A DNA stretch of 64,000 nt. Origin: Sipunculus nudus. Its lineage: Eukaryota; Annelida; Sipuncula; Golfingiida; Sipunculidae. Below the pieces are notes generated by a model, which was not told the origin of the DNA, did no database searches, and saw nothing but the letters and a program-made list of their open reading frames with translations. Position numbers and translations under genes: made by a program. Every line of letters starts with the position of its first letter. The stretch's first letter is position 1. Where the stretch lies: positions 1,309,501-1,373,500 of the forward strand of contig CM049319.1 in assembly GCA_026874595.1 (NCBI GenBank), in the 5' to 3' direction. This document shows, one piece after another, positions 2,433 to 63,086 of the stretch.

Positions 2433-5400
2433 GTAAGTAATATCAGAAATATTTATAATACTTAATATTTGTTAGTTCCTTATTTCTCATTTTATGGTTA
2501 AAAAAATTCTTTGAAGATTACAATGATAGCTTCTGTAATGACTGCCTGAAGTGACCAATTTTGATGTATCTTTACAGAATATCACATTGAAAGAACAATA
2601 AAAACAAATCCCAATAATTCTAAGAGCTAATTGATATGAATTTGATTGAATTTTTATGATCTGAAATGTCCCATGGATAAATAATACTGAAATGGTTCAT
2701 TTGATATTGAATAGAAGAACTATTTATAATTAACAGAAGGTGCATGTGAGCCTGTGTCAGCCCCGAGCGGGAGGAGAGAAGGCTATCAGTCTGGGAGAGA
2801 AGGCTTACAGGTGTCCGTATGAAGGCTGTGGCAGGCTCTATACAACATTTCATCATCTCAAGGTATGTCAAATCTTACTTATACGTATGAAATATAAAGC
2901 CTGGGAGAGAAGGCTTACTTGTGTACATATGAAGTCTGTTGGAGGCTCTATACAACATTTCATCATCTCAAGGTATGTTAAATATTACATATACGTATCA
3001 AATATAAATACCTGGGAGAGAAGGCTTACTTGTGTACATATGAAGTCTGTGGAAGGCTCAAAACATTGTTTCATAATCTTAAAGTTTGTCATCTTACTAA
3101 TCAGTATAACAAGTATCAAATATAAAGCCTGTGGGAGAAGGCTGACTGGAGTCCATATGATGGCTGTGGTCAGGCTCTATACAACATTTCATCATCTCAA
3201 TGTATGTTAAATTTTATGAATATCAAATATAAAGCCTGTGGGAGAAGGCTGACTGGAGTCCATATGATGGCTGTGGTGGGCTCTGTAAAATGTTTCATCA
3301 CTTCAAGTTATGCTTTCCTTATTGGAGTAATGTGGAGTGTTAGTAACAAAAAGAGAAGATTTCATCAGGATCTCACTTGTTATAAGCCAAGTTATAGGCT
3401 CAGGCATACAGGTGAATGGTTATATCAGAAGTGTCGAAACCTGTACATGTACCAAAACAGTGATTAAGCTGATAATTCATAGTCATGTACTTGTATTTTA
3501 ACAATTGTTATCTCAGGTACATGAGAGGTCCCACACAGGAGACAGACCGTTCAAATGCGAGTACCCGAGCTGTGAGAAGGCTTTTGCCACAGGTTACGGT
3601 CTTAAAAGCCACACACGTGTTCATACAGGGGAGAAACCTTACAAGTGCCCAGAGGAGTCATGTAACAAAGCATTCAAGACGTCCGGTGACCTGCAGAAAC
3701 ATATAAGGATACACACAGGTAGGATAAAACACACAGGTAAAGCAATATACACAGGTAGGGTTATACACAAAGGTAAAGTTATACACACAGGCAGAGTAAT
3801 ACACACAGGTGGGCAAAACTAACAGGTAAAGTTATACACACATGTTGGGTAATATATGCAGGTAGAGTTATATACACAGGAAGGGTAATACATGCAGGTA
3901 GAGTTATATACACAGGGAGGGTAAAACATGCAGGTAGAGTTATATACACAGGGAGGGTAATATATGCAGGTAGAGTTATATACACAGGGAGGGCAATACA
4001 TGCAGTAAGGGAAATACACACAGGTAGGGTAATACACACAGGTAGGGTAATACATGCACATAAAGTTATACACACAGGTTGGCAAAACACACAGCTAAAG
4101 TTATACACACATGTTGGGTAATACATGCAGGTAAAGTTATATACACAGGGAGGGTAATACATGCAGGTAGAGTTATATACACAGGGAGGGTAATACATGC
4201 AGGTAGAGTTATATACACAGGGAGGGCAATACATGCAGGTAGAGTTATATACACAGGCAGGGCAATACATGCAGGTAGTGTTATATACACAGGGAGGGTA
4301 ATACATGCAGGTAGAGTTATATACACAGGGAGGGTAATACATGCAGGTAGAGTTATATACACAGGGAGGGTAATACATGCAGGTAGAGTTATATACACAG
4401 GGAGGGTAATACATGTAGGTAGAGTTATATACACAGGGAGGGTAATACACGCAGGTAGAGTTATATACACAGGGAGGGTAATACATGCAGGTAGAGTTAT
4501 ATACACAGGGAGGGTAATACATGCAGGTAGAGTTATATACACAGGGAGGGTAATACATGCAGGTAGAGTTATATACACAGGGAGGGTAATACATGCAGGT
4601 AGAGTTATATACACAGGGAGGGTAATACATGCAGGTAGAGTTATATACACAGGGAGGGTAATACATGCAGGTAGAGTTATATACACAGGGAGGGTAATAC
4701 ATGCAGGTAGAGTTATATACAAAGGGAGGGCAATACATGCAGGTAGAGTTATATACACAGGGAGGGTAATACATGCAGGTAGAGTTATATACACAGGGAG
4801 GGTAATACACGCAGGCAGAGTTATATACACAGGGAGGGCAATACACGCAGGTAGAGTTATATACACAGGGAGGGTAATACATGCAGGTAGAGTTATATAC
4901 ACAGGGAGGGTAATACATGCAGGTAGAGTTATATACACAGGGAGGGTAATACATGCAGGTCGAGTTATATACACAGGGAAGGCAATACATGCAGGTAGAG
5001 TTATATACACAGGGAGGGCAATACATGCAGGTAGAGTTATATACAAAGGGAGGGCAATACATGCAGGTAGAGTTATATACACAGGGAGGGCAATACATGC
5101 AGGTAGAGTTATATACACAGGGAAGGCAATACATGCAGGTAGAGTTATATACACAGGGAGGGTAATACATGCAGGTAGAGTTATATACACAGGGAGGGTA
5201 ATACACGCAGGCAGAGTTATATACACAGGGAGGGCAATACACGCAGGTAGAGTTATATACACAGGGAGGGTAATACATGCAGGTAGAGTTATATACACAG
5301 GGAGGGTAATACATGCAGGTAGAGTTATATACACAGGGAGGGTAATACATGCAGGTAGAGTTATATACACAGGGAAGGCAATACATGCAGGTAGAGTTAT

Positions 5401-8400
5401 ATACACAGGGAGGGCAATACATGCAGGTAGAGTTATATACAAAGGGAGGGCAATACATGCAGGTAGAGTTATATACACAGGGAGGGCAATACATGCAGGT
5501 AGAGTTATATACACAGGGAAGGCAATACATGCAGGTAGAGTTATATACACAGGGAGGGCAATACATGCAGGTAGAGTTATATACACAGGGAGGGTAATAC
5601 ATGCAGGTAGATTTATATACACAGGGAGGGTAATACATGCAGGTAGAGTTATATACACAGGGAGGGTAATACATGCAGGTAGAGTTATATACACAGGGAG
5701 GGTAATACATGCAGGTAGAGTTATATACCAAGGAGGGTAATACATGCAGGTAGAGTTATATACCAAGGAGGGTAATACATGCAGGTAGAGTTATATACAC
5801 AGGGAGGGTAATACATGCAGGTAGAGTTATATACACAGGGAGGGTAATACATGCAGGTAGAGTTATATACACAGGGAGGGTAATACATGCAGGTAGAGTT
5901 ATATACACAGGGAGGGTAATACATGCAGGTAGAGTTATATACACAGGGAGGGTAATACATGCAGGTAGAGTTATATACACAGGGAGGGTAATACACGCAG
6001 GTAGAGTTATATACACAGGGAGGGTAATACACGCAGGTAGAGTTATATACACAGGGAGGGTAAAACACGCAGGTAGAGTTATATACACAGGGAGGGTAAA
6101 ACATGCAGGTAGAGTTATATACACAGGGAGGGTAAAACACGCAGGTAGAGTCATATACACAGGGAGGGTAAAACACGCAGGTAGAGTTATATACACAGGG
6201 AGGGTAATACATGCAGGTAGAGTTATATACACAGGGAGGGTAATACATGCAGGTAGAGTTATATACACAGGGAGGGCAATACATGCAGGTAGAGTTATAT
6301 ACACAGGGAGGGTAAAACATGCAGGTAGAGTTATATACACAGGGAGGGTAATACATGCAGGTAGAGTTATATACACAGGGAGGGTAATACATGCAGGTAG
6401 AGTTATATACACAGGGAGGGTAATACATGCAGGTAGAGTTATATACACAGGTAGGGTAATACACACAGGCAAGGTAGTTGTAGTTGCAGTTACTATGTGC
6501 AGTAGGATAGTGCTACTGCTGCCCTCTACTTATGTGCCAGGAAACCAAATTGATAACCAACATGAAGGTCTCGGCAGCTTACAATAGTATGCTGGACTTT
6601 CTACTATGGATCATCAGGGATTTTTCTGAAAGAGGGCTCACACATAGCAGATGTTGTCCACAATTTTAACATAAGGAACTACATAATGAGTGATCAGGAA
6701 AAATTGGGAGGAAATCAGTAGTGAGACAAGATCACTGAGAGCTCAGGAATTTTTAACATAATCAAGTATTTCCTGATTTTTTTGGGGTTGAGTGGTGTAA
6801 GGATAACATTAGGACACATCTGGATACATTGGTAGACTTTGGTAAACCCTACTGTTAACTCAATGTTTATAAGTCTCTCAAGATACAGTGGAACCCTGCC
6901 TTGGGACCTCCAGACAATTGCGACCATCCCCGCAATAACGATTACTTTTCCTGGTCCTGAATATATGATTCACGTAATCTAGAATTTCACAAAAAAGACC
7001 ACCCCCAAATTATGACCACTATGGTCAGTCCGCAAGATGGTCGTAATTGTGGGGTTCCAGCATTTTTACTGTTTTTGCTATTTTTCATCATTCTTTATCA
7101 TCAGGGTAACTTTATTTCCACATTCTGATGGCTGTGATCTGTGCGTTTTAGGGGAGCGACCATTTAAATGCCCTTTTGAGGGTTGTGACAAGTCTTTCAC
7201 CACCTCCAATATCAGGAAAGTCCACATCCGCACGCACACGGGGGAGCGGCCCTACATCTGTAACCATGAAGGGTGTGGAAGAGCGTTCGCCAGCGCTACA
7301 AATTATAAAAACCATATCCGAATTCACACAGGTAAGCACTTTTCATTTTGAAAATTGTTAAGTCTCCTTCCTTATCTAAGATTCTGAGTATCTCTTGCTT
7401 TTATTTTACATAGTTATTTATCTAGACTAAATTTATATACAAAAATCAAAGCCCCCTGGACTGAGATTGTTCTGCTTTGAACAAACTTATAACTGTTGCA
7501 TGTCTTTTGTACCTTTGGTGGAGATATACATGTAATATTAAACAAGTAAAACATTGGAGGAGTTCAACATGTGATGATGGAGTTACATTTGGTTGAAGGG
7601 TCCAAAGAAAATTATATCACTTCAGATGTTCAACATAAGGCATTGGATTAAGAAGGATTTTATTTAGTCCTGCAGGGACTTACAACTGGAACATTGGAAG
7701 AGAAATGATGTCATATCAGTTTGATATGTCGGTGATTTGTGCAGAATGATGTTCATTAGATATTGACGAAGCTGGTATGTGCTTGGTCTCCATAATCTTA
7801 ATTTGATCATTTCAGGGGAGAAGCCGTATGTGTGTACAGTAGATGGATGTGGCAAGAGATTTACAGAATACTCAAGTCTGTACAAGCATCATGTAGTTCA
7901 CACGCTCACCAAACCCTACTCTTGTAACCACTGTGGGAAAACATACAGACAGACATCCACCCTTGCCATGCACAAAAGGACAGCGCACGGCGAGGACACG
8001 GTCATCGACATCGATATACACCTGGCCAATCAGCAGGACATGTTACCTGAGAACTGTAAGTTGTTAATTATTGGGGCTGTAAAGAAATATTTCTCCTACC
8101 GGTTTCTGTGGTCAGGGGTACAGCAGAGACTCAAAGTCGGGAGATCATGAGTGAATCTCAGCCCAGGAGAGGTGAGATTTTTCACGGTCCGCCACCACCC
8201 AGGGTAAGCGCTCTGCAGGCTTAATGGGGAGACTATGCCAGCAATCATGTTTCACTCACAAACTCTCATTGATTTTTAAATATCTTCACCTTCTCATTAA
8301 TAAATTCCTCTTAATTTCTAGATCATTAATCAAATTCTTTGTTTGCTGTGCTTTGGACAAAGTGTGTAGAAATAACATCTCAAATGACCCTTTTTGTTGA

Positions 8401-11400
8401 TTTATTCTTGTGGCTGTTTGCAGATTGTTTCTCACCAATCACATTTCACCTAATATGTGCTATATATCACTGAGAGACAAATTTTTAAATGTTAGATATC
8501 CCTTTCCAAAATAAGATCAGATATCACCAACACACTACCCAGAAATCTGAGGTGTCTTATTATTCTAACAGGAAATTTCCTTGTATATTTTTGTATGGTA
8601 AAGAGTGTACAGGATGACCAGTCTGTCTTGTCCCAACAGGTGCTATGTATCTGTATTGACCAGCTGTTGACTGACCTTCAGACTGACACACTACATGTAA
8701 TAATAATGATAATGGGCACACAGTGGCAATACGCAGTGTCAGTTTGAAATATACCATTAACCTTGCTTTCATTTTGATTTTCTTCCTTCAAACTGTTCAT
8801 ATGAGGGCAGTTTATATTTTATTTTATAAGTTACACTTTTAATAATTCACCACGTGAGTTCTGTGGTATAGGTAGTCAAAGGGGGAAGTCAAACAGAAAA
8901 GTAAATTACCAACAAGAAAGCATATCAATAGTAGCACTGTGTCTCTGTCCAGTTAGCTTGAGGGTCACATTAAGCATTTGGATCTCATTTTGGTCCATTT
9001 TATGCAACCATTAGGTGTAACATCAGTGTTCCAGACAGTTCCAGATATTGCTTCACCAGACAATGTTTAACTGACTGACACCGGTCTTCTGTAACTGTCG
9101 ATCCCATACAGGTTCATGCGAGTAGATTTAGGTGAAATAGGGTTATATGTTATGATGTATGTAATTTATAGTCATATGGTTTCCATGGTGACAGATGAGC
9201 ATGAACCTCCTCAGAAACAGCCTCATCTCCAGCTTCAGGGAGGCGTAGCAACGAGTGGAGATGTCACTTCAGGAGCTCTCGTAATTAATACCTCAAGCGC
9301 CACACAACAGCCAGTAAGTGGTATAGATAAATTACATATTCTTAAGGAAGCTGGGAGAAAATGTAAGTTACATAAGACATGTACTTTCTGACTGTTGTAT
9401 TTATATACAACTGGATGTCTACAATGTTTTGTCAAACTTTTCAAAAAATTCCTCAAATATTATATCAGGTAGCATATTATTGTTTGAACCTTCATTTAAT
9501 TATATATTGTGTATCTGCTGAAACATGATGTTGTGACAGGTTTACATTTTATCAAGTATTATTTGTAAAGAAGTAAATTATCTTTCAATCTTAAACTGAA
9601 ATCCTTGGATAATTAGCCGTCCTAGCCACCAAATGTTTCTGGCAAATTTTCTATCCCTACAGGTCCAATCACTGGGAAACACTGCACAAAATTAATTTGT
9701 GCCTGTTCACTGTCCCTTGAGTATCTTTATGCCGTATTTCCTTGCCCTTATTAGTCACTATCAGTAACTCTTTACTCTAATTAAAACTAGTCCCTTGGCA
9801 AATACTGTTTTCATACATTTGGGATAGTACACAGCCTAGTGGTAAGGCTATTGGACAGTGGAACATAAGGACACTCTGCAATCCACATGCAGTCTATTCC
9901 AAAGCTCAAAGTGGAAGTGGAGACTGGAGAGACCCCTCAGCTGATCCTCAGGGACATACCAGTACTCTTGTCTTAGACTGCAGGTTATGACTTCTTGGTT
10001 ATCTGTAACTATGGCTCAAATGTGCAAAATCTAAAAGGATCCTGTTCCTGAGTTCCCTCCTCCTTGTATATACTGAGGCTTGCTTTATATTGGCGAGGCT
10101 GAAATTTCGTGATTTCTGTTTTTTAATGTTGTGCAGGGGTTTCATTTTGTGATTGTAACAGAAGCTATAATCTTAGTACATGCAGTAGCATTTGGATATA
10201 TTTTAAATATATAGAATAAATCCTTCAATACCTCACTCACCACTGGTTCATTCATAAGATTATGACCTGTGTCACAGTGGATATATTCCCTTTGATTACT
10301 ACATGTTTTACAATAACTAACGCTTGCATGCATGGGCCAGTTTCAGTAGAATTCAAAGATACGGTTGATGATATGGTTGTTTCCAGAGGTGTGATAACTA
10401 ATCTGTTTGTAAAGCTGCATCATCCCTTCTTGATCATCTTAGTTGATGAGGCATCTTTTCCCCCGAGGATTTCATATTCACGATCATTTCACATTCATGA
10501 AAATCCCAAAATTAAAACCTTCGCATACAAAAAGGCAACCACAGTAAGTCCATTCCCCAAAGAGGCCTGTTACCTGCTTAATTTATTTTATTTTCCTGTA
10601 TTTGTAAAACACATATAATTTTCTTTTCAACAGATGATGGTTACTGGAGAAAATCTCAACATGGCCAACCTGGTGACTGACAGCCAGACATTACAGAATT
10701 TACAACAAAATATAAACGGACAGGGGGGACTCGGCCAGCCAGCTGTGATGGTGGCTGGAGAAAGTGAACAACAGATATACGTGGTCACAGACCCCTCACA
10801 AATACAGTACTTTCAGGTAAGCTGGCTCACTCTCCTGTAAGAAAATGAGTGTCCGTGTATGGGCCAGAAGGAACAGTCCTTGTAGTACATGAAATAAGCA
10901 GTGACACAGAGTAATATCCTAGTAAAATTGAGAGACAAACGTCTACTCCCAGTAATCATCACCAGTTATGGTGTCGATGGTTAATGATTAAGTGACTCCA
11001 ACACAAATAGTTGCACCAACAATTTTCTTTATTCCTGTTCCTGCAGGCATGCAAGCATACTTGAACATTTTCCTACTTCCAACTCACATTAATATGCTAT
11101 TTTATATTTCTTTAGTGCTCACTAGATTGCAGCACATTACTTTCAAGACCCTACTGTGTTCTTATGGAAAGTACTAATATAAGGCAGTCCTTAACCACTA
11201 TATTTGTTTCATTTATAACTGAAATGTGTTTATGATGGGACTTAAAATATTGTGTGTTGCTTCAGTGCATAAAACTAGCACATGTAATTATTGTACATAA
11301 TGGCCTGCAATAGTTATAAATCTGACTAGTGATCAGTAGGCAGTGTGCTATTTTAGACCTGTCAGATCGGTCAGCAGAGTGCTGCTTAAAATGATTTTAT

Positions 11401-17625: not shown

Positions 17626-17665
<40 letters not shown>

Positions 17666-19130: not shown

Positions 19131-19145
19131 AACAGAATACTTAAG

Positions 19146-19151
19146 TTTATT
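19146..19151 (-). promoter_or_regulatory. Candidate polyadenylation signal of the thrombospondin-like gene
   Basis: AATAAA on the - strand, about 415 bases after the stop codon at 19568-19570. Other candidates lie within the next 130 bases, so the choice is tentative. Confidence 0.4.
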
Positions 19152-19567: not shown

Positions 19568-19732
19568 TTAAAGTTCATGATGTATGTAACGCGAGGCATC
19601 TTCGTAAGGCTGGGCCCCATAGTTGACATTGTTGTCCATTGAGAGGAAGGGCATGTCCCATCGTACACTTCTACGTCTGCGACGAGAGTTGTTGGGATAT
19701 GTCAGGACAAATCGGTGCTGATCCATGGAGCT
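19568..19732 (-). CDS. Mega-TSP-like, terminal coding exon with polybasic tail
   Basis: Acceptor acatttcag; 54 codons then TAA. The peptide [15 protein letters not shown] is followed by five consecutive Arg and Ser-Val-Arg, a consensus furin-type cleavage site, and ends RYIHHEL. No known domain; no membrane anchor. Confidence 0.75.
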   Translation of the reverse strand, partial: SSMDQHRFVLTYPNNSRRRRRSVRWDMPFLSMDNNVNYGAQPYEDASRYIHHEL

Positions 19733-21959: not shown

Positions 21960-22001
<42 letters not shown>

Positions 22002-55000: not shown

Positions 55001-58000
55001 AGTGTGTACTGTATAGGATTACTGACATGTAAACTGTACCTGGGAGAGTAGTCATGTTGATTCTGCCTTGGTCCGGTTTACAGTGTGTACTGTATAGGAT
55101 TACTGACATGTAAACTGTACCTGGGAGAGTAGTCATGTTGATTCTGCCTTGGTCCGGTTTACAGTGTGTACTGTATAGGATTACTGACATGTAAACTGTA
55201 CCTGGGAGAGTTAATAAGTCATGTTGATTCTGCCTAGGTCCAGTTTACAGTGTGTACTGTATAGGATTACTGACATGTAAACTGTACCTGGGGGAGTAGT
55301 CATGTTGATTCTGCCTCGGTCCGGTTTACAGTGTGTACTGTATAGGATTACTGACATGTAAACTGTACCTGGGAGAGTAGTCATGTTGATTCTGCCTAGG
55401 TCCGGTTTACAGTGTGTACTGTATAGGATTACTGACATGTAAACTGTACCTGGGAGAGTAGTCATGTTGATTCTGCCTAGGTCCGGTTTACAGTGTGTAC
55501 TGTATAGGATTACTGACATGTAAACTGAACCTGGGAGAGTAGTCATGTTGATTCTGCCTCGGTCCGGTTTACAGTGTGTACTGTATAGGATTACTGACAT
55601 GTAAACTGAACCTGGGAGAGTAGTCATGTTGATTCTGCCTCGGTCCGGTTTACAGTGTGTACTGTATAGGATTACTGACATGTAAACTGTACCTGGGAGA
55701 GTAGTCATGTTGATTCTGCCTCGGTCCGGTTTACAGTGTGTAATGTATAGGATTACTGACATGTAAACTGTACCTGGGAGAGTAGTCATGTTGATTCTGC
55801 CTCGGTCCGGTTTACAGTGTGTACTGTATAGGATTACTGACATGTAAACTGTACCTGGGAGAGTAGTCATGTTGATTCTGCCTCGGTCCGGTTTACAGTG
55901 TGTACTGTAAAGGATTACTGACATGTAAACTGTACCTGGGAGAGTAGTCATGTTGATTCTGCCTCGGTCCAGTTTACAGTGTGTACTGTATAGGATTACT
56001 GATATGTAAACTGTACCTGGGAGAGTAGTCATGTTGATTCTGCCTCGGTCCAGTTTACAGTGTGTACTGTATAGGATTACTGACATGTAAACTGTAACCT
56101 GGGAGAGTAGTCATGTTGATTCTGCCTCGGTCCGGTTTACAGTGTGTACTGTATAGGATTACTGACATGTAAGCTGTAACCTGGGAGAGTAGTCATGTTG
56201 ATTCTGCCTCGGTCCGGTTTACAGTGTGTACTGTATAGGATTACTGACATGTAAACTGTACCTGGGAGAGTAGTCATGTTGATTCTGCCTTGGTCCGGTT
56301 TACAGTGTGTACTGTATAGGATTACTGACATGTAAACTGTACCTGGGAGAGTAGTCATGTTGATTCTGCCTCGGTCCGGTTTACAGTGTGTACTGTATAG
56401 GATTACTGACATGTAAACTGTACCTGGGAGAGTAGTCATGTTGATTCTGCCTCGGTCCGGTTTACAGTGTGTACTGTATAGGATTACTGACATGTAAGCT
56501 GTAACCTGGGAGAGTAGTCATGTTGATTCTACCTCGGTCCGGTTTACAGTGTGTACTGTATAGGATTACTGACATGTAAACTGTACCTGGGAGAGTAGTC
56601 ATGTTGATTCTGCCTCGGTCCGGTTTACAGTGTGTACTGTATAGGATTACTGACATGTAAACTGTACCTGGGAGAGTAGTCATGTTGATTCTGCCTCGGT
56701 CCGGTTTACAGTGTGTACTGTATAGGATTACTGACATGTAAACTGTACCTGGGAGAGTAGTCATGTTGATTCTGCCTCGGTCCGGTTTACAGTGTGTACT
56801 GTATAGGATTACTGACATGTAAACTGTACCTGGGAGAGTAGTCATGTTGATTCTACCTCGGTCCGGTTTACAGTGTGTACTGTATAGGATTACTGACATG
56901 TAAACTGTACCTGGGAGAGTAGTCATGTTGATTCTGCCTCGGTCTCGTTTACAGTGTGTACTGTATAGGATTACTGACATGTAAACTGTACCTGGGAGAG
57001 TAGTCATGTTGATTCTGCCTCGGTCCGGTTTACAGTGTGTACTGTATAGGATTACTGACATGTAAACTGTACCTGGGAGAGTAGTCATGTTGATTCTGCC
57101 TCGGTCCGGTTTACAGTGTGTACTGTATAGGATTACTGACATGTAAACTGTACCTGGGAGAGTAGTCATGTTGATTCTGCCTCGGTCCAGTTTACAGTGT
57201 GTACTGTATAGGATTACTGACATGTAAACTGTACCTGGGAGAGTAGTCATGTTGATTCTGCCTCGGTCCGGTTTACAGTGTGTACTGTATAGGATTACTG
57301 ACATGTGAACTGTACCTGGGAGAGTAGTCATGTTGATTCTGCCTAGGTCCGGTTTACAGTGTGTACTGTATAGGATTACTGACATGTAAACTGTACCTGG
57401 GAGAGTAGTCATGTTGATTCTGCCTAGGTCCAGTTTACAGTGTGTACTGTATAGGATTACTGACATGTAAACTGTACCTGGGAGAGTTGTCATGTTGATT
57501 CTGCCTAGGTCCAGTTTACAGTGTGTACTGTATAGGATTACTGACATGTAAACTGTACCTGGGAGAGTTGTCATGTTGATTCTGCCTCGGTCCAGTTTAC
57601 AGTGTGTACTGTATAGGATTACTGACATGTAAACTGTACCTGGGAGAGTAGTCATGTTGATTCTGCCTCGGTCCAGTTTACAGTGTGTACTGTATAGGAT
57701 TACTGACATGTAAACTGTACCTGGGAGAGTAGTCATGTTGATTCTGCCTCGGTCCGGTTTACAGTGTGTACTGTATAGGATTACTGACATGTAAACTGTA
57801 CCTGGGAGAGTAGTCATGTTGATTCTGCCTCGGTCCGGTTTACAGTGTGTACTGTATAGGATTACTGACATGTAAACTGTACCTGGGAGAGTTGTCATGT
57901 TGATTCTGCCTCGGTCCGGTTTACAGTGTGTACTGTATAGGATTACTGACATGTGAACTGTACCTGGGAGAGTAGTCATGTTGATTCTGCCTCGGTCCGG

Positions 58001-61000
58001 TTTACAGTGTGTACTGTAAGGATTACTGACATGTGAACTGTACCTGGGAGAGTAGTCATGTTGATTCTGCCTCGGTCCGGTTTACAGTGTGTACTGTATA
58101 GGATTACTGACATGTAAACTGTACCTGGGAGAGTAGTCATGTTGATTCTGCCTCGGTCCGGTTTACAGTGTGTACTGTATAGGATTACTGACATGTAAAC
58201 TGTACCTGGGAGAGTAGTCATGTTGATTCTGCCTAGGTCCGGTTTACAGTGTGTACTGTATAGGATTACTGACATGTAAACTGTACCTGGGAGAGTAGTC
58301 ATGTTGATTCTGCCTAGGTCCGGTTTACAGTGTGTACTGTATAGGATTACTGACATGTGAACTGTACCTGGGAGAGTAGTCATGTTGATTCTGCCTCGGT
58401 CCGGTTTACAGTGTGTACTGTATAGGATTACTGACATGTAAACTGAACCTGGGAGAGTAGTCATGTTGATTCTGCCTAGGTCCAGTTTACAGTGTGTACT
58501 GTATAGGATTACTGACATGTAAACTGAACCTGGGAGAGTAGTCATGTTGATTCTGCCTAGGTCCAGTTTACAGTGTGTACTGTATAGGATTACTGACATG
58601 TAAACTGAACCTGGGAGAGTAGTCATGTTGATTCTGCCTAGGTCCAGTTTACAGTGTGTACTGTATAGGATTACTGACATGTGAACTGTACCTGGGAGAG
58701 TAGTCATGTTGATTCTGCCTAGGTCCAGTTTACAGTGTGTACTGTATAGGATTACTGACATGTGAACTGTACCTGGGAGAGTAGTCATGTTGATTCTGCC
58801 TAGGTCCAGTTTACAGTGTGTACTGTATAGGATTACTGACATGTGAACTGTACCTGGGAGAGTAGTCATGTTGATTCTGCCTCGGTCCGGTTTACAGTGT
58901 GTACTGTATAGGATTACTGACATGTAAACTGTACCTGGGAGAGTAGTCATGTTGATTCTGCCTCGGTCCGGTTTACAGTGTGTACTGTATAGGATTACAG
59001 ACATGTGAACTGAACCTGGGAGAGTAGTCATGTTGATTCTGCCTCGGTCCGGTTTACAGTGTGTACTGTATAGGATTACTGACATGTAAACTGAACCTGG
59101 GAGAGTAGTCATGTTGATTCTGCCTCGGTCCGGTTTACAGTGTGTACTGTATAGGATTACTGACATGTAAACTGAACCTGGGAGAGTAGTCATGTTGATT
59201 CTGCCTCGGTCCGGTTTACAGTGTGTACTGTATAGGATTACTGACATGTAAACTGAACCTGGGAGAGTAGTCATGTTGATTCTGCCTCGGTATGGTTTAC
59301 AGTGTGTACTGTATAGGATTACTGACATGTAAACTGAACCTGGGAGAGTAGTCATGTTGATTCTGCCTCGGTCCGGTTTACAGTGTGTACTGTATAGGAT
59401 TACTGACATGTAAACTGAACCTGGGAGAGTAGTCATGTTGATTCTGCCTCGGTCCGGTTTACAGTGTGTACTGTATAGGATTACTGACATGTGAACTGAA
59501 CCTGGGAGAGTAGTCATGTTGATTCTGCCTCGGTCCGGTTTACAGTGTGTACTGTATAGGAAAACTGACATGTAAACTGAACCTGGGAGAGTAGTCATGT
59601 TGATTCTGCCTCGGTCCGGTTTACAGTGTGTACTGTATAGGATTACTGACAAGTAAACTGTACCTGGGAGAGTAGTCATGTTGATTCTGCCTCGGTCCGG
59701 TTTACAGTGTGTACTGTATAGGATTACTGACATGTAAACTGTACCTGGGAGAGTAGTCATGTTGATTCTGCCTCGGTCCGGTTTACAGTGTGTACTGTAT
59801 AGGATTACTGACATGTAAACTGAACCTGGGAGAGTAGTCATGTTGATTCTGCCTCGGTCCGGTTTACAGTGTGTACTGTATAGGATTACTGACATGTAAA
59901 CTGAACCTGGGAGAGTAGTCATGTTGATTCTGCCTCGGTCCGGTTTACAGTGTGTACTGTATAGGATTACTGACATGTGAACTGTACCTGGGAGAGTAGT
60001 CATGTTGATTCTGCCTCGGTCCGGTTTACAGTGTGTACTGTATAGGATTACTGACATGTGAACTGAACCTGGGAGAGTAGTCATGTTGATTCTGCCTCGG
60101 TCCGGTTTACAGTGTGTACTGTATAGGATTACTGACATGTGAACTGAACCTGGGAGAGTAGTCATGTTGATTCTGCCTCGGTCCGGTTTACAGTGTGTAC
60201 TGTATAGGATTACTGACATGTAAACTGAACCTGGGAGAGTAATTATGTTGATTCTGCCTCGGTCCAGTTTACAGTGTGTACTGTATAGGATTACTGACAT
60301 GTAAACTGAACCTGGGAGAGTAATTATGTTGATTCTGCCTCGGTCCGGTTTACAGTGTGTACTGTATAGGATTACTGACATGTAAACTGAACCTGGGAGA
60401 GTAATTATGTTGATTCTGCCTCAGTCCGGTTTACAGTGTGTACTGTATAGGATTACTGACATGTAAACTGTACTTGGGAGAGTAGTCATGTTGATTCTGC
60501 CTCGGTCCGGTTTACAGTGAGTACTGTATAGGATTACTGACAAGTAAACTGTACCTGGGAGAGTAGTCATGTTGATTCTGCCTAGGTCCAGTTTACAGTG
60601 TGTACTGTATAGGATTACTGACATGTAAACTGAACCTGGGAGAGTAGTCATGTTGATTCTGCCTAGGTCTGGTTTACAGTGAGTACTGTATAGGATTACT
60701 GACAAGTAAACTGTACCTGGGAGAGTAGTCATGTTGATTCTGCCTAGGTCCAGTTTACAGTGTGTACTGTATAGGATTACTGACATGTAAACTGAACCTG
60801 GGAGAGTAGTCATGTTGATTCTGCCTAGGTCCAGTTTACAGTGTGTACTGTATAGGATTACTGACATGTGAACTGTACCTGGGAGAGTAGTCATGTTGAT
60901 TCTGCCTAGGTCCAGTTTACAGTGTGTACTGTATAGGATTACTGACATGTAAACTGTACCTGGGAGAGTAGTCATGTTGATTCTGCCTCGGTCAGGCTTA

Positions 61001-63086
61001 CTCTTCTCTTGGTAAGATGAGGCTGTGATCCAGTCATCAGGAATGAATGCCTTCTCCATCCCTATCACCTTCTTACATTCTGGGACAAAAAAAAGGGCAC
61101 ACACCTGGATTTTATCTCTTGAAACAATAGCTACTGTCTGCTTAACAATTCACAAAATCTTGTGAAATATACAAACACAATCAACCGACTCTCATTAGAA
61201 GAGGTAGCATAGCAATTCAGGTAGGTATTAAATAAACGTATTTACTATGAGACAATTTTGACCTGTCTTTGATGAGGAACAACCTCAGAGTGGTCATTCC
61301 TGTTTATCCTGGGGATAACAGTGGCATGGACCTTTAAATTTGAATATGACACAATGACGCCATCTCTCTTTTAATGTTGCGCACACACATCTGAGAGATG
61401 GAGTACATGGATGGAGTCATTGTGTCATATTCAAATTTAAAGACCATACCACTGTGGTGTCATGTCTGATGTACTGCCAAAGGTACATAGTGTATGATCA
61501 TTGGCTTCATCTGGCAGATAAATGTTTTTTTACAATGGACCATTATCTCATATTTTAGCTTCAATTTACTGTATGGAATTGATAAAAATAAGTATAGTAC
61601 TTTGCTGCACACTTAATCACAACAATACTTTCCTGTTATACTGCAGGGGCTGAAATTGTAAACTTTGGTCTTTATTACAAATTATCCGAAACAAAAAGGT
61701 GGAGATGGGTAATGACAGAGAGTATAATCTCCACTGTACATTCTGTACAACAAACAACCACAAATTATACATTCCATGCAACACTGGTCTTGTATGCCTA
61801 GGCTTGGAGTTGGTTTTGAGCTATCTCCTATGCTTCTAAGTTAATTTTACTGCTAATTAAAGTTGATTGAAATCCCTCAGATCCTTACCAAAAATGTACT
61901 GGTAGTATCCAGGGACCCTCAGGTATACCTCGCCTGTCACATTATTTACAACAAAATCATAAACGATCGGGAAGAACTCCACATCCACCAGACACGAGTT
62001 GCTCAGCACCACAGTGACATTGGCGTATGTCCCACGTGTAGGGACGCCTCCGTCAGTGACAATAACGACAAATGTGATGTTGGTTGTCTGGGAGTAGACG
62101 TCCCTCAGTAGGTCCAGAGAGTCATTGTATGACACTGGGGGGCTGTCAGAAACAATTGTTACTCTTAATAAACTTTTCATTTATCTTAAATCTTGGTAAA
62201 ATATGGAGAAGCCATCTTCATTACAATAGCAATTCTTGATACATGCCTTTTTTCTGCATGAAATGTTAATAAATTAAACAATCCACTAGGAATGGTTCTA
62301 GTATAATGTCCTAAAAAACTTTCCTTTACAGGACACTGAAGTATTTGTTACTTAACTAAATTTTTAAAGCAAGTGTCCTATTCATGTAAAATAATCAATT
62401 TAACTCAGAGCAGACTGTGACATGCACATATATATTTCTATATATGGTGATAACTTTCAATGTTATTAACACATTAACACACTTGAGAGTGAACCATCAC
62501 TTGAAAACAAGGCCAGTAACTTCTATGAATTATGCAATAGTGACCTAATTTTTGACAGGTCCATATAGTATATACAAATGAATATTTATGTAAAATACCA
62601 ATAAACAATCCTATTGCTTTTGAAAGTAGGCAGTCTTTAAATGTAACTGTTCATAGAATTTTATTGGCAAATGCAGGTTTTGCGTAATTTCATTGTGAAC
62701 AAAGCCAGAGTGACTCAGTTTCAGGTTTGGAAGGAGAACTGAGGGACATCTAACACTTTGCAGAATTTTAGATTCCTGGGGATAATGGTTTCAAAACATG
62801 TCAGTTTAAAAGATGGACAGATAGACCGGCAGAGACGAAAAGCCAATAGCAAGGACCTTCACCATAGCTCAGTTAACTTATAGTCTGAGCTAATAACATA
62901 CAGATACATGGCTTACTCTTCCACAATGTTCTTCCTCTGGAAGAAAAGCTCCTGGTTGATGGTGCTGTCAGCATCTGAAGCATTCGGGGTTATTATGGCA
63001 GCCATCTGGAGGGCGGGGTCAGCCACCACTTCAAATACTCTCTCCTGAAGGATTGGGCAGTTGTCATTCACATCCTTGACCTTGAC
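19568..63086 (-). CDS. Mega-thrombospondin-like extracellular matrix protein, 3' 26 coding exons
   Basis: Twenty-six exons on the - strand join to 4254 nt (1417 residues plus stop) with every phase matching. Order of domains in window residues: end of cadherin repeats (1-125, linker DVNDNCP); F5/8-type C discoidin domain (142-297); Cys-rich ephrin-receptor/GCC2-like modules (300-490); EGF and TSP-type EGF modules (490-675); calcium-binding TSP type-3 repeats rich in DxDxDGxGD and DNCP (675-930); TSP C-terminal L-lectin-like domain (930-1146) with ALWHT and LWHDP; one LamG domain (1150-1310); basic tail. A cadherin-containing giant with a TSP C-terminal half matches the invertebrate mega-thrombospondins; these are secreted matrix proteins expected to bind calcium, matrix and cell-surface partners. 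Canonical TSPs lack discoidin and cadherin and end at the TSP C-domain, so LamG after it is notable. No transmembrane segment is seen. The N-terminus is beyond the right edge. Confidence 0.88.
20347..20417 (-). CDS. Mega-TSP-like, exon C-terminal to LamG
   Basis: Acceptor ctttgcag, donor gtgagt, phase 1-0. Short peptide [23 protein letters not shown] without a recognised fold. Supported by matching phases on both sides. Confidence 0.7.
20762..21816 (-). repeat. 47-bp tandem array (about 22 copies) of exon end plus 5' splice site
   Basis: On the - strand each unit is about 40 nt copied from the end of exon 21817-21943 (reading [12 protein letters not shown]) followed by the donor gtgagtat. 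The exon itself is copy 1 and the array runs directly into the intron. Copies differ by scattered substitutions (for example cacagctg/cacggctg); nearly all keep GTGAGT, and a few near the middle have a changed donor. Confidence 0.95.
21817..21943 (-). CDS. Mega-TSP-like, exon: end of LamG
   Basis: Acceptor tattttacag, donor gtgagt, phase 0-1. Begins [17 protein letters not shown], the typical last strand and 'DAE' end of a LamG/concanavalin-like domain (preceded by DE in the upstream exon). Its last 40 bases seed the 47-bp array. Confidence 0.85.
21960..21999. repeat. AT dinucleotide microsatellite in the polypyrimidine region of an intron
   Basis: A run of TA repeats about 15 bases upstream (gene sense) of the acceptor of exon 21817-21943; length variation here could affect branch point or acceptor recognition. 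Confidence 0.85.
22330..23385. repeat. 53-bp minisatellite, about 20 copies, mid-intron
   Basis: Unit gagtaatctcttagctaggg followed by ttatctctggttaatgactc and agctcacagtact. Copies are 90-100 % alike by eye with a few degenerate ones. It lies inside the intron between exons 21943 and 23654, about 270 bases from the nearest exon. Unlike most arrays in this window its unit does not resemble either flanking exon. Confidence 0.95.
23654..23734 (-). CDS. Mega-TSP-like, exon: LamG core
   Basis: 27 whole codons, acceptor tggtgacag, donor gtgagt. Reads [26 protein letters not shown], with the LamG signature LGRD...YLGQMDE. Confidence 0.88.
24165..24244 (-). CDS. Mega-TSP-like, exon: LamG middle
   Basis: Acceptor atctgtag, phase 1-0. 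Reads [20 protein letters not shown] and ends PPVYW. The donor gtaggt inside an open stretch was chosen because it is the one that keeps phase with the next exon; a reading through to 24132 would break the frame. Confidence 0.75.
25107..25390 (-). CDS. Mega-TSP-like, exon: LamG first half
   Basis: Acceptor tatgtgacag, donor gtatca, phase 2-1. Starts [16 protein letters not shown] and includes FTMEAWIKF and [11 protein letters not shown], the classic strands of a LamG/pentraxin-like jelly roll (FDG...ME.WI.....W.HVA...). Confidence 0.92.
25893..26036 (-). CDS. Mega-TSP-like, exon: end of TSP C-terminal domain
   Basis: Acceptor taactttcag, donor gtagag, phase 2-2. Reads [31 protein letters not shown] and ends [10 protein letters not shown], matching the last strands of the TSP C-domain (DSG.IYD....GGR.G.F..SQ....S...Y.C). 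Confidence 0.93.
26293..30799 (-). repeat. 59-bp tandem array (about 76 copies) spanning a 5' splice site
   Basis: On the - strand each unit contains 'gcatctgatcag|gtatgtacatcagctgactg' and then 'ttctcatcactcctcatatt'. The real exon 30800-30972 ends 'gcatgatcag|gtatgtac', so about 10-12 exon bases plus the donor and about 47 intron bases make the unit. A few short units lack about 25 bp (for example near 26640, 26925, 27305, 27580). Most copies keep CAG|GTATGT perfectly. 59 is not a multiple of three, so read-through hits stops. Confidence 0.95.
30800..30972 (-). CDS. Mega-TSP-like, exon: TSP C-terminal domain, LWHDP region
   Basis: Acceptor tacttgtag, donor gtatgt, phase 0-2. Reads [32 protein letters not shown] and [15 protein letters not shown], the most conserved block of the TSP C-domain (GPG..L..ALWHT...V..LWHDP...W.....Y.W...HRP..G.IR). 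Confidence 0.95.
31440..31512. repeat. TATG/TA microsatellite
   Basis: Alternating gtatgtatgt and tatatata runs within the intron between exons 31570 and 30972. Confidence 0.8.
31570..31763 (-). CDS. Mega-TSP-like, exon: TSP C-terminal domain, middle
   Basis: Acceptor aactacacag, donor gtcagt, phase 1-0. Reads [36 protein letters not shown] and GIKGLQLK. Equivalent of the GT..VNT..DDDYAGF.FGYQ block, with the acidic DDD run replaced by QDVC, which adds an unpaired-looking Cys. Confidence 0.93.
32267..32494 (-). CDS. Mega-TSP-like, exon: last type-3 repeat and start of TSP C-domain
   Basis: Acceptor tgattttcag, donor gtgagt, phase 1-1. Begins [20 protein letters not shown], then DNCPRNK, then the lectin-like fold ([30 protein letters not shown]). 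Confidence 0.95.
32838..33447. repeat. 122-bp tandem repeat, five essentially perfect copies, mid-intron
   Basis: The landmark 'tttgcttcacttaatttaaa' recurs at 32841, 32963, 33085, 33207 and 33329, exactly 122 bp apart, and I see no difference between copies. It lies within the intron between exons 34609 and 32494, not at a splice site. The lack of divergence implies very recent expansion or an assembly effect. Confidence 0.95.
33950..33963. repeat. Poly-C tract
   Basis: A run of C residues embedded in a 'ctgacccc...ctccacccctg' context; simple sequence with no clear role. Confidence 0.8.
34122..34608 (-). repeat. 37-bp tandem array (about 13 copies) of exon end plus 5' splice site
   Basis: On the - strand each unit reads 'cagaaccctacacagactga' then 'cgccaatg|gtatgtata' with variants (caccagtg|gtatga). 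It copies about the last 28 nt of exon 34609-34704 (QNPTQTDAN) plus about 9 nt of intron including the donor. The exon is copy 1. Confidence 0.93.
34609..34704 (-). CDS. Mega-TSP-like, exon: TSP type-3 repeat
   Basis: Acceptor cttttcag, donor gtatgt, phase 1-1. Reads [19 protein letters not shown] then [12 protein letters not shown], a calcium-binding type-3 motif pair. Confidence 0.95.
35147..35232 (-). CDS. Mega-TSP-like, exon: TSP type-3 repeat
   Basis: Acceptor tgtttatag, donor gtagag, phase 2-1. Reads [20 protein letters not shown] and LDTDGDGTG. Confidence 0.95.
35603..35726 (-). CDS. Mega-TSP-like, exon: TSP type-3 repeats
   Basis: Acceptor gaataccag, donor gtgagt, phase 1-2. Reads [40 protein letters not shown]. 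The acceptor was chosen because it restores the '...[11 protein letters not shown]' continuity across the junction. Confidence 0.93.
36403..36607 (-). CDS. Mega-TSP-like, exon: TSP type-3 repeats
   Basis: Acceptor tttattgtag, donor gtgagc, phase 0-1. Reads [60 protein letters not shown] and KCPNVADP: tandem type-3 motifs with regular DNCP spacing. Confidence 0.95.
37456..37563 (-). CDS. Mega-TSP-like, exon: TSP type-3 repeat
   Basis: 36 whole codons, acceptor atgtccccag, donor gtatgt. Reads [20 protein letters not shown] then [16 protein letters not shown]; the [19 protein letters not shown] string is almost identical to canonical thrombospondins. Confidence 0.95.
37987..38091 (-). CDS. Mega-TSP-like, exon: end of EGF, start of type-3 repeats (GC donor)
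   Basis: 35 codons, acceptor atatttcag. Reads [20 protein letters not shown] and [10 protein letters not shown]. Family alignment (CKK followed by DNCP) and phase 0 require the exon to end at AAAAAG, giving a non-canonical donor GCAGGT; the nearby GT (gtggat) would shift the frame. Confidence 0.85.
38294..38443 (-). CDS. Mega-TSP-like, exon: TSP-type EGF module
   Basis: 50 codons. Reads [20 protein letters not shown] then [18 protein letters not shown]; the GSF.CG.C..G..G....GC motif is the thrombospondin EGF2/3 signature. The acceptor is a plain 'tttgaag' chosen by phase and homology. Confidence 0.9.
38848..39102 (-). CDS. Mega-TSP-like, exon: TSP EGF modules
   Basis: 85 codons, acceptor tcttttcag, donor gtaaga. 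Reads [34 protein letters not shown] and [25 protein letters not shown]...CD marks a calcium-binding EGF followed directly by the GSF module in the next exon, as in thrombospondins. Confidence 0.93.
39687..40021 (-). CDS. Mega-TSP-like, exon: GCC2/ephrin-receptor-like and EGF modules
   Basis: Acceptor ttatttcag, donor gttggt, phase 1-0. Reads [40 protein letters not shown] (Cys-rich GYSS..C.PCP.G repeats of the ephrin-receptor-like/GCC2 type), then [20 protein letters not shown], ending in the DINE start of a calcium-binding EGF. Confidence 0.92.
40472..42154 (-). repeat. 110-bp tandem array, distal part (about 15 copies), of exon plus 5' splice site
   Basis: Each unit on the - strand contains about 102 nt of exon 49877-50039 (reading [32 protein letters not shown]) followed by the donor gtaagta. 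Many units carry TAC-TAG where the true exon has TAC-CAG, an in-frame stop, so they cannot serve as coding exons. The array is split from its proximal part (48826-49876) by an LTR retrotransposon. Confidence 0.95.
42151..42154. other. Target-site duplication, left copy (acct)
   Basis: acct directly precedes the 5' LTR and is repeated at 48826-48829 after the 3' LTR. Removing the element and one copy restores an uninterrupted 110-bp repeat unit (ctgtccacctctacac). Confidence 0.93.
42155..42887 (+). repeat. 5' LTR
   Basis: Begins tgttgcatggacgtcacc and ends gggaccgtaaca (TG...CA). Compared with the 3' LTR I find one base change (gacgcac/gacgcgc) and one missing C (aaaagaac/aaaacgaac) across 733 bases. 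Contains the candidate TATA box at 42385-42391. Confidence 0.95.
42385..42391 (+). promoter_or_regulatory. Candidate TATA box of the 5' LTR
   Basis: tataaaa in the middle of the LTR, followed by a GC-richer segment; the right kind of position for the U3/R boundary promoter. The single indel between LTRs falls just after it. Confidence 0.55.
42891..42908 (+). promoter_or_regulatory. Primer-binding site
   Basis: tggcgaccgcgacgagac starts three bases after the 5' LTR. TGG at the start is complementary to the CCA end of a tRNA. The specific tRNA cannot be named with confidence. Confidence 0.7.
43046..47857 (+). CDS. gag-pol: Gag-Pol polyprotein of the Gmr1-like retrotransposon (SCAN-like Gag)
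   Basis: One uninterrupted ORF of 1603 codons. Coiled-coil-like charged segment about 87-123. Gag capsid with YELVPEAYR at 210-218 followed by a helix-rich block resembling the vertebrate SCAN domain (LIEEF...I...LDEH....[10 protein letters not shown]) to about 290. CCHC zinc knuckle C374-C377-H382-C387. Aspartic protease DTG at 457-459. Integrase HHCC zinc finger about 750-792, catalytic triad D821, D880, E916 (DX35E) and GPY at 1054-1056. Reverse transcriptase with YIDD at 1336-1339. RNase H with D1485, E1527, D1554. All expected catalytic residues are present and there is no frameshift, so the copy looks potentially active. Placement of integrase before RT is unusual for Ty3/gypsy and shared with Gmr1-like elements. 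Confidence 0.95.
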   Translation: MGTEFKPNEIIPQLRENRSLLYTLKKNELEIVALHLNIDIMDVCTVEGLRNVLKKSLYGDVESKEESDLEEKPIKEPLGATAIDPIELELRKYELKLKYEAEIRRCEIERETQIKLKELELQNPQNRKAHEPSEFLFRNSTKVPPFNENEVERYFSYFERVATLMAWPKGQWTLLLQSVLVGRAQDVYTALTDQQCRDYDTVKEVILRAYELVPEAYRLKFRNATKRENQSHVEYARDKESAFNRWCQSMKIDQDFEKLKQLILIEEFKRHIRSDIKIFLDEHKVRNVNEAGVLADEFALTHRPSYTSHRRRYGEKREGSKSPKLGRRKGSPYYRGHSGSGKPQSDHGKPQCKSQSDSPAQHKEGQPRTGPKYCTFCEFKGHTESECYRKRYGQSKPKPNALTVTQSMKPVTMPSKLETKGETQSPVHESFQPFVSDGFVQLEGNHARKARVKILRDTGATQSLVLKSVLPFSKESYAGCSVLVQGVNSEFLEVPLHRVKLESDLVSEFVTVGVCSKLPVEGVSLLLGNDLAGDRVKIDPRMTKLPSTDRDTDLLQQEFPGVFPGCVVTRAMSKKASLKPESSVLDLSQTFMAHSNDDVSGLKPVTRVNIKSPVCDPSGTPSPKDSTTNVVQGKQTLNRNLQRSTNGVKSPDQNGHEQLKKDRSVKNVEVSMKTDDLIEMQKKDPDIASLRENALTKEEADKVPTCFTLQNDVLVRKYRPPTTPADETWNTLYQIVVPPEYRPEILKLAHDHPMAGHLGVRKTKHKILQHFYWPKLKRDVAKYCKTCHVCQMIGKPTHQISPAPLSPIPATHDAFESVILDCVGPLRKTKHGNEYVLTIMCTATRFPEAIPLRTISAKKIVEALVKFFTTFGLPRTIQTDQGSNFMSNIFAQVMEELGIKHYKSSAYHPESQGALERFHQTLKNMIRAYCLDTGNQWDEGLPFLIFAAREAVQESLGFSPFELVYGHCVRGPLAVLKDTWIENSSQSSLLKYVQEFKEKLSRANEIAQEHLKKAQNKMKVWYDKKTTKREFKPGDKVLVLFPIPGHPLQAKYSGPYKVVEKKSDLNYVIDTPDRRKSHQLCHINMLKEYHDRSAETCQSSPPQTNLILIKETEKNAEDILMKKTEHPVKLNNSDILNNLDQKLSHLDFDQLSELKEILLNYDSLFPDVPSRTNVLQHDVDVGDASPIKQAPYRAGPQKLQAIKNEIKYMIENDIIENSSSAWSSPCLLIKKPDMTYRFCTDYRKVNTVTITDTYPLPRVEDCIDKIGSATYISKLDLLKGYWQVPLTERAKQISAFVTPNGLFQYKVMPFGMKNGPACFMRLMNCVLSGLDNCTCYIDDVVVYNHIWEDHKQSLVELFERLKKAGLTVNLAKSDFCRATVTYLGHEVGQGCVKPIASKVSAIVEFPVPTNRKELMRFLGMTGYYRKFCQNFAEVVNPLTDLLKKDRKFHWNKNCQNAFERAKAILQSAPVLQAPNFDKPFSLMTDASDCGVGAVLIQDDDFNISHPVCYYSKKFLPRQKNYSTIEKETLSLLMALQHFEVYLGSTPYDITVYTDHNPITFLHKMKNNNQRLMRWSLALSEFNLVIKHIKGSDNIIADTLSRRH
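47858..48080 (+). other. Short non-coding segment between pol and the polypurine tract
   Basis: About 220 bases, AT-rich, no ORF of note; excludes an env gene in this copy. Confidence 0.8.
48081..48091 (+). promoter_or_regulatory. Polypurine tract
   Basis: aagggtggggg abuts the first base of the 3' LTR; interrupted by one T, preceded by a pyrimidine-rich stretch (tctttctttt). Expected plus-strand primer. Confidence 0.75.
48092..48825 (+). repeat. 3' LTR
   Basis: 734 bases, same ends as the 5' LTR with two differences in total. Followed directly by the acct target duplication and the resumed 110-bp array. Confidence 0.95.
48826..49876 (-). repeat. 110-bp tandem array, proximal part (about 10 copies)
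   Basis: Continuation of the array at 40472-42154 on the exon side of the retrotransposon; the copy at the right end is the real exon 49877-50039. Donor gtaagt is kept in most units and varies to gtaaat in some (ttattta/ttactta on the + strand). Confidence 0.95.
49877..50039 (-). CDS. Mega-TSP-like, exon: Cys-rich module; copy 1 of the 110-bp array
   Basis: Acceptor tcattaacag, donor gtaagt, phase 0-1. Reads [40 protein letters not shown] and [12 protein letters not shown]. This copy is recognised as the functional exon because it has a unique 5' part with an acceptor, no in-frame stop, and phase agreement with exon 39687-40021 almost 10 kb downstream. Confidence 0.9.
50461..50630 (-). CDS. 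Mega-TSP-like, exon: Cys-rich module
   Basis: Acceptor atgattacag, donor gtatgg, phase 1-0. Reads [35 protein letters not shown] and CSPCPLGW: ephrin-receptor/TNFR-like Cys spacing. Confidence 0.9.
50740..51225. repeat. Long imperfect inverted repeat (foldback, about 480 bp)
   Basis: The left arm (about 50740-50960) and the reverse complement of the right arm (about 51000-51225) share long matches, including 'gctccctctg', 'gcacacagagccaatgttg' with 'gtgcacagagccaatgttg', and 'gactgacagctca..agcccagcaat' with 'gactgacagctcagcggcccagcaat'. Roughly 75-85 % alike by eye. No coding capacity. A MITE or solo foldback element in an intron; transcription would give a long hairpin. Confidence 0.8.
51446..51652 (-). 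repeat. 106-bp tandem duplication next to a splice donor
   Basis: The block from 'aactgtttctgtgttttaaa' to 'tatgctcaaacat' occurs at 51446 and again at 51552, essentially identical. The second copy ends a few bases before the donor gtaagt of exon 51653-51809, so the duplication abuts but does not include the exon. Confidence 0.88.
51653..51809 (-). CDS. Mega-TSP-like, exon: discoidin domain C-terminal half
   Basis: Acceptor ttctttcag, donor gtaagt, phase 0-1. Reads [20 protein letters not shown] then [13 protein letters not shown]: the conserved '..P..aRYiRi.P..W...I.lR.EllGC' end of an F5/8-type C domain, with the closing Cys. Confidence 0.94.
52336..52544 (-). CDS. Mega-TSP-like, exon: discoidin domain middle
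   Basis: Acceptor ctccatgcag, donor gtgaga, phase 1-0. Reads [20 protein letters not shown] then [19 protein letters not shown], typical of F5/8C (GGW.......QWIQVDL). Confidence 0.94.
52893..60959 (-). repeat. 81-bp tandem array (about 100 copies) of exon end plus 5' splice site
   Basis: On the - strand each unit carries about 38 nt from the end of exon 60960-61079 ([12 protein letters not shown]), the donor cag|gtacag, and about 43 nt of intron. Because 81 is divisible by three and the unit has no stop in the exon frame, read-through gives 27-residue repeats ([27 protein letters not shown]) for hundreds of codons, broken by rare nonsense changes and indels (near 60420 and 58018). Copies differ at a few sites (cggtccgg/aggtccag, gtaaactg/gtgaactg) in locally homogenised blocks. 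Confidence 0.96.
60960..61079 (-). CDS. Mega-TSP-like, exon: discoidin domain start; copy 1 of the 81-bp array
   Basis: Acceptor ttttgtcccag, donor gtacag, phase 1-1. Reads [20 protein letters not shown] then [19 protein letters not shown], the C..plGm..g.I.d..ItASS start of an F5/8C domain. The next coding exon is more than 8.4 kb away across the array and joins in frame. Confidence 0.93.
61317..61458. repeat. Short inverted repeat with 27-bp perfect core
   Basis: The 27-base arm starting 'ctttaaatttgaatatgaca' (61332-61358) is matched perfectly by its reverse complement near 61415-61441, and the flanks (cagtggcatgg / ccataccactg; gccatctctc / gagatgg) extend the arms imperfectly. About 55 bases of loop. 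MITE-like or hairpin-forming; no coding. Confidence 0.85.
61889..62142 (-). CDS. Mega-TSP-like, exon: last cadherin repeat end and linker
   Basis: Acceptor gtttctgacag, donor gtaagg, phase 2-1. Reads [20 protein letters not shown] then [11 protein letters not shown], the 'VTDGG.P....A.V.V.V' ending of a cadherin repeat, followed by a 45-residue linker ([20 protein letters not shown]) into the discoidin Cys. Confidence 0.9.
62917..63086 (-). CDS. Mega-TSP-like, exon: cadherin repeat linker and start of last repeat
   Basis: Donor gtaagc, phase 0-2; acceptor attaag is weak. Reads [20 protein letters not shown] and [22 protein letters not shown] is the calcium-binding DxNDNxP inter-repeat linker and DAD the DxD motif, so at least one further cadherin repeat must lie upstream outside the window. 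Confidence 0.88.

Follow-up and report, generated by a model that had tools for sequence, protein, structure and literature searches.

Why should so many introns at one locus of Sipunculus nudus open with a minisatellite whose repeat unit carries the end of the upstream exon together with its splice donor, and are acceptors really spared? The window considered here is the whole stretch of 64,000 nucleotides that was analysed, C14:1309501-1373500 in a genome of 1.43 Gb and 153 contigs. It contains the 3' parts of two genes, identified from open frames and Pfam:

2325..14257, + strand: C2H2 zinc-finger gene, 3' part, 8 exons
19568..63086, - strand: F5/8C-EGF-TSP_3-TSP_C-Laminin_G_3 gene, 3' part, 26 exons

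Both genes were rebuilt by hand. The eight exons of the + strand gene share one open frame and encode C2H2 fingers recognised by Pfam; from these fingers we take the gene to be ZNF143/ZNF76 (Staf)-like, and MTF-1, considered as its identity, was dropped because the fingers read like ZNF143/ZNF76. The 26 exons of the - strand gene join into 1418 codons including the stop, the sole stop being at the end, and Pfam identified F5/8 type C, EGF, TSP_3, TSP_C and Laminin_G_3 domains. The intron after exon 37987-38091 (- strand) is of the GC-AG type, and the frame closes only with the GC donor. Window donor positions were fixed by the open reading frames of the rebuilt genes. Together the two gene models have 32 introns (49,866 intron bases), in agreement with the 32 complete introns counted in the first-pass annotation.

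Tandem arrays at the splice junctions of the window

Thirty-eight TRF rows were reduced to ten arrays by merging overlapping rows and treating two 110-bp rows as one; the rows dropped were microsatellite-like or short, such as a TA-rich 30-bp row at 17582-17646, outside both genes. The first-pass annotation had proposed seven donor-spanning arrays, and comparison of TRF output with the rebuilt exons located every one at the place named. In these seven of the ten window minisatellites, which cover a donor, the coding exon is copy 1:

2791..3312, + strand: 110-bp array, 4.7 copies, at the donor after exon 2737-2862 (TRF); unit of 72 bp exonic and 38 bp intronic
3709..6469, + strand: 18/36-bp array at the donor after exon 3517-3718 (TRF); unit of about 8 bp exonic and 10 bp intronic
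52912..61001, - strand: 81-bp array, about 100 copies, at the donor of exon 60960-61079 (TRF)
48826..49979, - strand: 110-bp array, donor-proximal piece, at the donor of exon 49877-50039 (TRF); unit of 103 bp exonic and 7 bp intronic
40474..42154, - strand: remainder of the 110-bp array of donor 49877, beyond a retroelement (TRF, same unit)
34122..34639, - strand: 37-bp array at the donor of exon 34609-34704 (TRF); unit of 31 bp exonic and 6 bp intronic
26294..30806, - strand: 59-bp array at the donor of exon 30800-30972 (TRF); unit of 7 bp exonic and 52 bp intronic
20757..21857, - strand: 47-bp array at the donor of exon 21817-21943 (TRF); unit of 41 bp exonic and 6 bp intronic

These donor-seeded arrays amount to 20,340 bases, about 41% of window intron length, and all array bases to 44.5%. 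The pieces 40474-42154 and 48826-49979 are one 110-bp array split by an insertion:

42155..48825: LTR retroelement within the 110-bp array (LTRs, junctions)

Its LTRs are 99.7% identical over 734 bp and an ACCT repeat lies on both flanks. Since a retroelement with near-identical LTRs cuts it, the 110-bp array is older than this young insertion. The element has a single long open frame of 1607 codons (43034-47854).

The other three arrays cover no junction:

51444..51644, - strand: 106-bp duplication, 1.9 copies (TRF)
22334..23385, - strand: interior 53-bp array (TRF)
32837..33447, - strand: interior 122-bp array (TRF)

The first begins 8 bp inside the donor of exon 51653-51809, leaving the donor itself uncovered, and the second lies 268 bp past the donor of exon 23654-23734. 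The five copies of the 122-bp array are scored by TRF as 100% alike, which points to a very recent or homogenised array.

Thus the ten window arrays cover seven donors and no acceptor. When positions within introns were drawn at random for the ten arrays, which could extend by up to 100 bp into an exon, they covered on average 0.52 donors and 0.52 acceptors, and the maximum number of donors in 20,000 runs was five. The window arrays are far from random placement. A test independent of TRF, which asked whether the 50-bp junction recurs in the adjoining intron, gave the same seven of 32 donors with scores of 51-100 (next best 24, shuffle maximum 26), and just one of 32 acceptors, 32494, scored above its own shuffle maximum (31 vs 27). 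This acceptor is the site of a decayed array:

32430..32860, - strand: worn ~142-bp triplication across the acceptor of exon 32267-32494 (junction test, pair alignment)

The coordinates are those of the stretch compared, which at its upstream end runs into the margin of the 122-bp array. Its pair scores were 70, 74 and 57, against a maximum of 59 in 200 shuffles run for the first pair only. The 7:0 ratio of donors to acceptors claimed initially therefore holds for intact arrays and becomes 7:1 when decayed ones are counted.

Because their units are unrelated to one another, the seven donor arrays represent independent events, as had been proposed, and each unit matches its own exon. Agreement between the exon copy and the consensus of the other copies was 0.79-1.00, measured over the exonic part plus six bases (the exonic part being only 7-8 bp at 3718 and 30800); in the 81-bp array the exon copy is identical to the consensus of the remaining copies over 40 bp. 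A single mobile or dispersed satellite inserting at donors would account for the occurrence of every array at the same kind of place, but units that differ wholly and derive each from its own exon refute it, and we give this explanation practically no chance.

Donor and acceptor arrays elsewhere in the genome

We looked for similar arrays in twenty 10-kb stretches (200 kb) around kinase exons, picked regardless of repeats. The search used TRF, a small exon finder and the junction test, here applied to 71 donors and 72 acceptors of predicted exons, and each case was then read. At its loosest setting the exon finder made 71 predictions in the window, of which 32 overlapped a true exon, and it placed 24 of the 34 exons exactly. 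The sample yielded three donor-spanning arrays (L010 at about 714, L022:2085 and L026:4926), three acceptor-spanning arrays (L013:7265-8484; L024:3794-4164, with five exonic bases; and L010:3804, a worn case with a single extra copy) and one donor-adjacent array (L018, beginning 8 bp inside the intron). The donors of L010 and L022 came from TRF and reading rather than from the junction test, and two further loci above the donor threshold of that test, L022:3935 and L027:8847, are outside the count of three. Pfam matches were obtained for the exons of L022, L026, L018 (kinase) and L024 (kinase), with none for the two exons of L010 or that of L013; Pfam-supported cases alone number two donors, one acceptor and one adjacent array, instead of three, three and one. 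The sample is small, yet it is not 7:0. The idea that donors alone are affected is contradicted by these acceptor-spanning arrays (3 vs 3) and by four of the five acceptor arrays inspected in the motif scan described below.

Several candidates in the sample were left uncounted: L022:7453, L004:2471 and L028:45, where the junction was unconvincing; L015:7980, where a weak predicted exon lies 10 bp away; and L011:7042, where the overlap was merely 3 bp. The same applies to TE-like tandem families of 143, 279-290 and 340 bp, which the script had labelled as acceptor cases (L018:6922, L027:3992), and to L018:2199, which passed the junction-test threshold as a donor but reads as TE-like. The ~143 and 279-290-bp tandem families are a separate repeat class that recurs across loci, some of its units being TGACCTTGACCTTTGACC-like, and phrases similar to them occur in the window near 11800-12300. 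Members of these families were noted at:

L013:614-2585
L012:6522-8621
L014:9418-10000
L024:2067-3021
L018:6922-8042
L027:3992-4707

For a genome-wide view we searched for three copies of a 9-mer spaced 10-40 bases apart, which covers periods up to 49 bp. Outside the window, exons were recognised by open frame, by splice signals and by eye, and some of them by Pfam as well. The triple of the consensus donor CAGGTAAGT gave 303 overlapping matches, representing at least 17 distinct arrays by hand count in C1-C7, and the reversed triple gave 132 matches and four distinct arrays in C1-C7. Single copies of CAGGTAAGT and its reverse numbered 15,332 and 12,946, those within arrays included. The excess of donor arrays over this one control motif had P = 0.010.

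Twelve of the 17 listed tandem-donor arrays start in an exon-like reading frame whose own donor opens the series: L031, L033, L034, L035, L039, L040, L043, L044, L045, L046, L048 and L049. The exon of L040 is on the other strand, and that of L044 was missed by the exon finder and read by eye. No exon was found at three of the 17 (L029, L041 and L042), and for the remaining two (L047 and L050) the sequence was taken short of the upstream edge. L047 (G000:C6:27275460-27282774) is a tandem-donor array with a 47-bp unit and matches over 7 kb. Pfam, queried with peptides of 29-109 residues, supported five of the twelve exons, with E values from 1e-10 to 0.016, only L046 being above the curated cut-off:

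L046: thioredoxin, 1e-10
L035: ABC_membrane, 7e-5
L048: permease, 7e-4
L040: spectrin, 0.004
L034: PH, 0.016

The other seven gave no Pfam match, and their exons are read by eye from frame and splice signals. A script label that made L035 the acceptor of an opposite-strand exon was overruled by reading, and its ABC_membrane match supports the donor reading.

The acceptor 9-mer TTTTTCAGG behaved similarly. Its triple gave 108 matches in at least 12 distinct arrays (listed to C14), and its reverse gave 19 matches in three arrays in the whole genome (P = 0.016); single copies numbered 47,098 and 48,268, respectively. A likely exon lies at the end of four of the five acceptor arrays inspected (L051, L052, L053 and L055), while L054 showed none. 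Two of these exons had Pfam matches, both below the curated cut-off (L052, COR-A, 1e-5; L053, sodium:solute symporter, 8e-4). Junction arrays of both kinds recur at many loci of the genome.

Within C1-C7 there were 17 donor arrays (control 4) compared with six acceptor arrays (control 2). A real site carries the exact 9-mer with a probability of about 0.0167 for donors and 0.0094 for acceptors, as estimated from 80 sites each (32 of the window and 48 of predicted exons). A rough correction for this difference suggests a per-site donor excess of about 1.7-fold, with a wide error.

Conservation, unit edges and the origin of the arrays

The first-pass annotation had raised the possibility of a selected role for strings of donors. 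Such strings might be kept for U1 recruitment, protection from early polyadenylation or splicing control, and both their number (up to about 100 copies in the 81-bp array) and the retention of the donor GT in 94-100% of copies could be taken to favour this. We addressed this by column conservation, for which 13 of 15 rows were usable, the array at 2862 (one copy) and the 40474 piece (aligned at a wrong site) being left out. The donor columns were no better kept than others: their rank among 9-column windows had a median of 0.53 (range 0.15-0.85). For the 18/36-bp array the GT value of 95% belongs to the other half of the 36-bp unit and not to the register of the exon, where GT is lost from most units. 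The period, too, ignores the reading frame, being a multiple of three in seven of 22 donor arrays, the level expected by chance, so the inner donors are unlikely to extend the protein. Given, in addition, that acceptor arrays exist and that a retroelement sits in one of the donor arrays, a function of the donor strings seems to us very improbable.

We consider it probable that the arrays are instead near-neutral minisatellites of the junction, tolerated because they are removed along with the intron. Formation would begin with tandem duplication of a short piece of DNA across an exon-intron boundary, and the array would then presumably grow by slippage or unequal exchange. The intron-side copies would be spliced out while the copy adjoining the exon keeps the working site, that is, the first donor or the last acceptor. 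With mRNA and protein unchanged, the array could drift almost neutrally. Exon-derived DNA would be able to grow in this way only at exon edges, because inside an exon the protein would change. Purging is probably more frequent for acceptor arrays, since additional acceptors upstream would be encountered first and would pull intron sequence into the mRNA. This account supposes correct splicing at the exon copy, with which the predicted open frames over 26 and eight exons are consistent. Two observations count against it: decay has set in by copy four of the array at 2862, and GT persists in the exon's own register in only 11 of the 77 copies at 3718. Tolerance alone also leaves something to be explained, since seven of ten window arrays are at donors though the intron interior far exceeds the junctions, which asks for a bias in formation, and since the edges of the repeat units are clustered.

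This clustering was seen in 22 donor arrays (seven of the window, three of the sample and 12 found by motif), whose units were delimited by ungapped extension; the edges of L045 and L048, for which the program's best period was a multiple, were settled by eye. The intronic part of the unit measures 6-14 bp in 13 of the 22 arrays, where 5.4 are expected if edges are uniform from +6 to the period (P = 0.0004), and use of the program's rows for L045 and L048 gives 12 of 22 (P = 0.0006). The range of +6 to +14 was, however, picked after the values had been seen, and the wider range of +6 to +20 gives a weaker result (14 of 22 against 8.8 expected, P = 0.014). Among the ten arrays not chosen by motif, five have edges at +6 to +14, with 2.1 expected (P = 0.027). 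In six acceptor arrays, L053 being outside this set, the intronic parts were 19, 22, 31, 70, 90 and 132 bp, the 70-bp value being read over two periods.

A unit edge nearer than +6 would break the donor in the exon copy, so that purging of such units is to be expected; the pile-up just above +6 is unexplained by purging alone. Breaks or template switching just past the donor, for which a paused polymerase or U1-bound nascent RNA are proposed settings, might seed tandem duplications and place the right edge of the unit where it is found. The rough per-site donor excess fits such mutation tied to the 5' splice site, as do the two donor-adjacent arrays that begin 8 bp inside their introns (51653 and L018). 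Against it, acceptors also seed arrays, and their units too can hold little intron (19 and 22 bp in two of six); the post hoc range and the reading of edges by ungapped extension further weaken the argument from edges. Moreover, exons of the window are richer in G+C than its array-free non-exon DNA (0.50 vs 0.34). With purging below +6, exon-rich units that carry a minimal splice site may arise without any special mechanism, and the same unit anatomy could follow if minisatellites grow preferentially from exon-like DNA. A reading based on strand skew or R-loops was rejected, as the composition profile gave a mixed G-skew of the arrays in gene orientation. We regard a donor-tied mutational mechanism as unlikely, and we judge quite unlikely the broader proposal that DNA near splice sites is a genome-wide hot spot of minisatellite birth, where breaks or template switches at +6 to +14, coupled to transcription and U1 binding, seed exon-derived arrays and much of the growth of introns starts at splice sites.

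Precedents and implications

Minisatellites at exon-intron junctions have a counterpart in the lancelet (amphioxus), where the original Adh paper is reportedly that of Canestro et al. 2002. The first-pass annotation knew of no description of the pattern; two reports on lancelet 'mirages' describe the same geometry (PMC3087553, PMC3902484). These minisatellites are found at 5' and 3' boundaries in the Adh3 and globin genes, and RT-PCR is said there to suggest regular splicing (PMC3087553); similar, imperfect repeats are described in PGBD5, and troponin C is mentioned (PMC3902484). In S. nudus, likewise, the unit lies across the exon-intron boundary, at 7 of 32 window donors, both donors and acceptors are affected, and the units of the seven window arrays are gene-specific and not dispersed. 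The present arrays belong to another genome, of 1.43 Gb, in which they occupy 7 of 32 window introns with up to about 100 copies, and are known from the DNA of one assembly.

Other systems resemble the arrays less closely, as far as the available parts of the sources indicate. Human segmental duplications have internal tandem repeats at exon-intron boundaries (PMC2812944), but these alter the introns and transcripts of recent paralogues, whereas the present arrays are intronic and leave the exon in place. Intron gain by AGGT duplication has been reviewed with the Rogers model, ATP2A1 and cases from fission yeast and potato (PMC4974935). There, as here, the duplicated segment holds AG|GT, but the process creates a new intron, whereas here the duplication is taken to widen a pre-existing one. 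The fission yeast genes of that review, with a 24-bp AGGT-bearing exon segment in several copies (PMC4974935), are the nearest case found outside chordates. Intronic minisatellites have also been described without the junction geometry (PMC4039745; in a mollusc, PMC6905558). Among the open-access sources searched, in the parts available, no report from outside chordates was found in which repeats of this junction geometry leave the exon in place.

The arrays are thus best filed with the lancelet mirages. The exclusion of acceptors fails; what remains is a donor excess of modest size, together with unit edges that cluster just past the donor. What had been described in a handful of lancelet genes is seen here at many loci in a different genome, where donor-seeded arrays may be a main route of intron growth. 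Through the clustering of edges, a mutation mechanism coupled to splicing becomes open to test. The arrays also provide many natural examples of almost identical splice sites in competition, through which site choice could be studied, and new introns or exons may arise from them.
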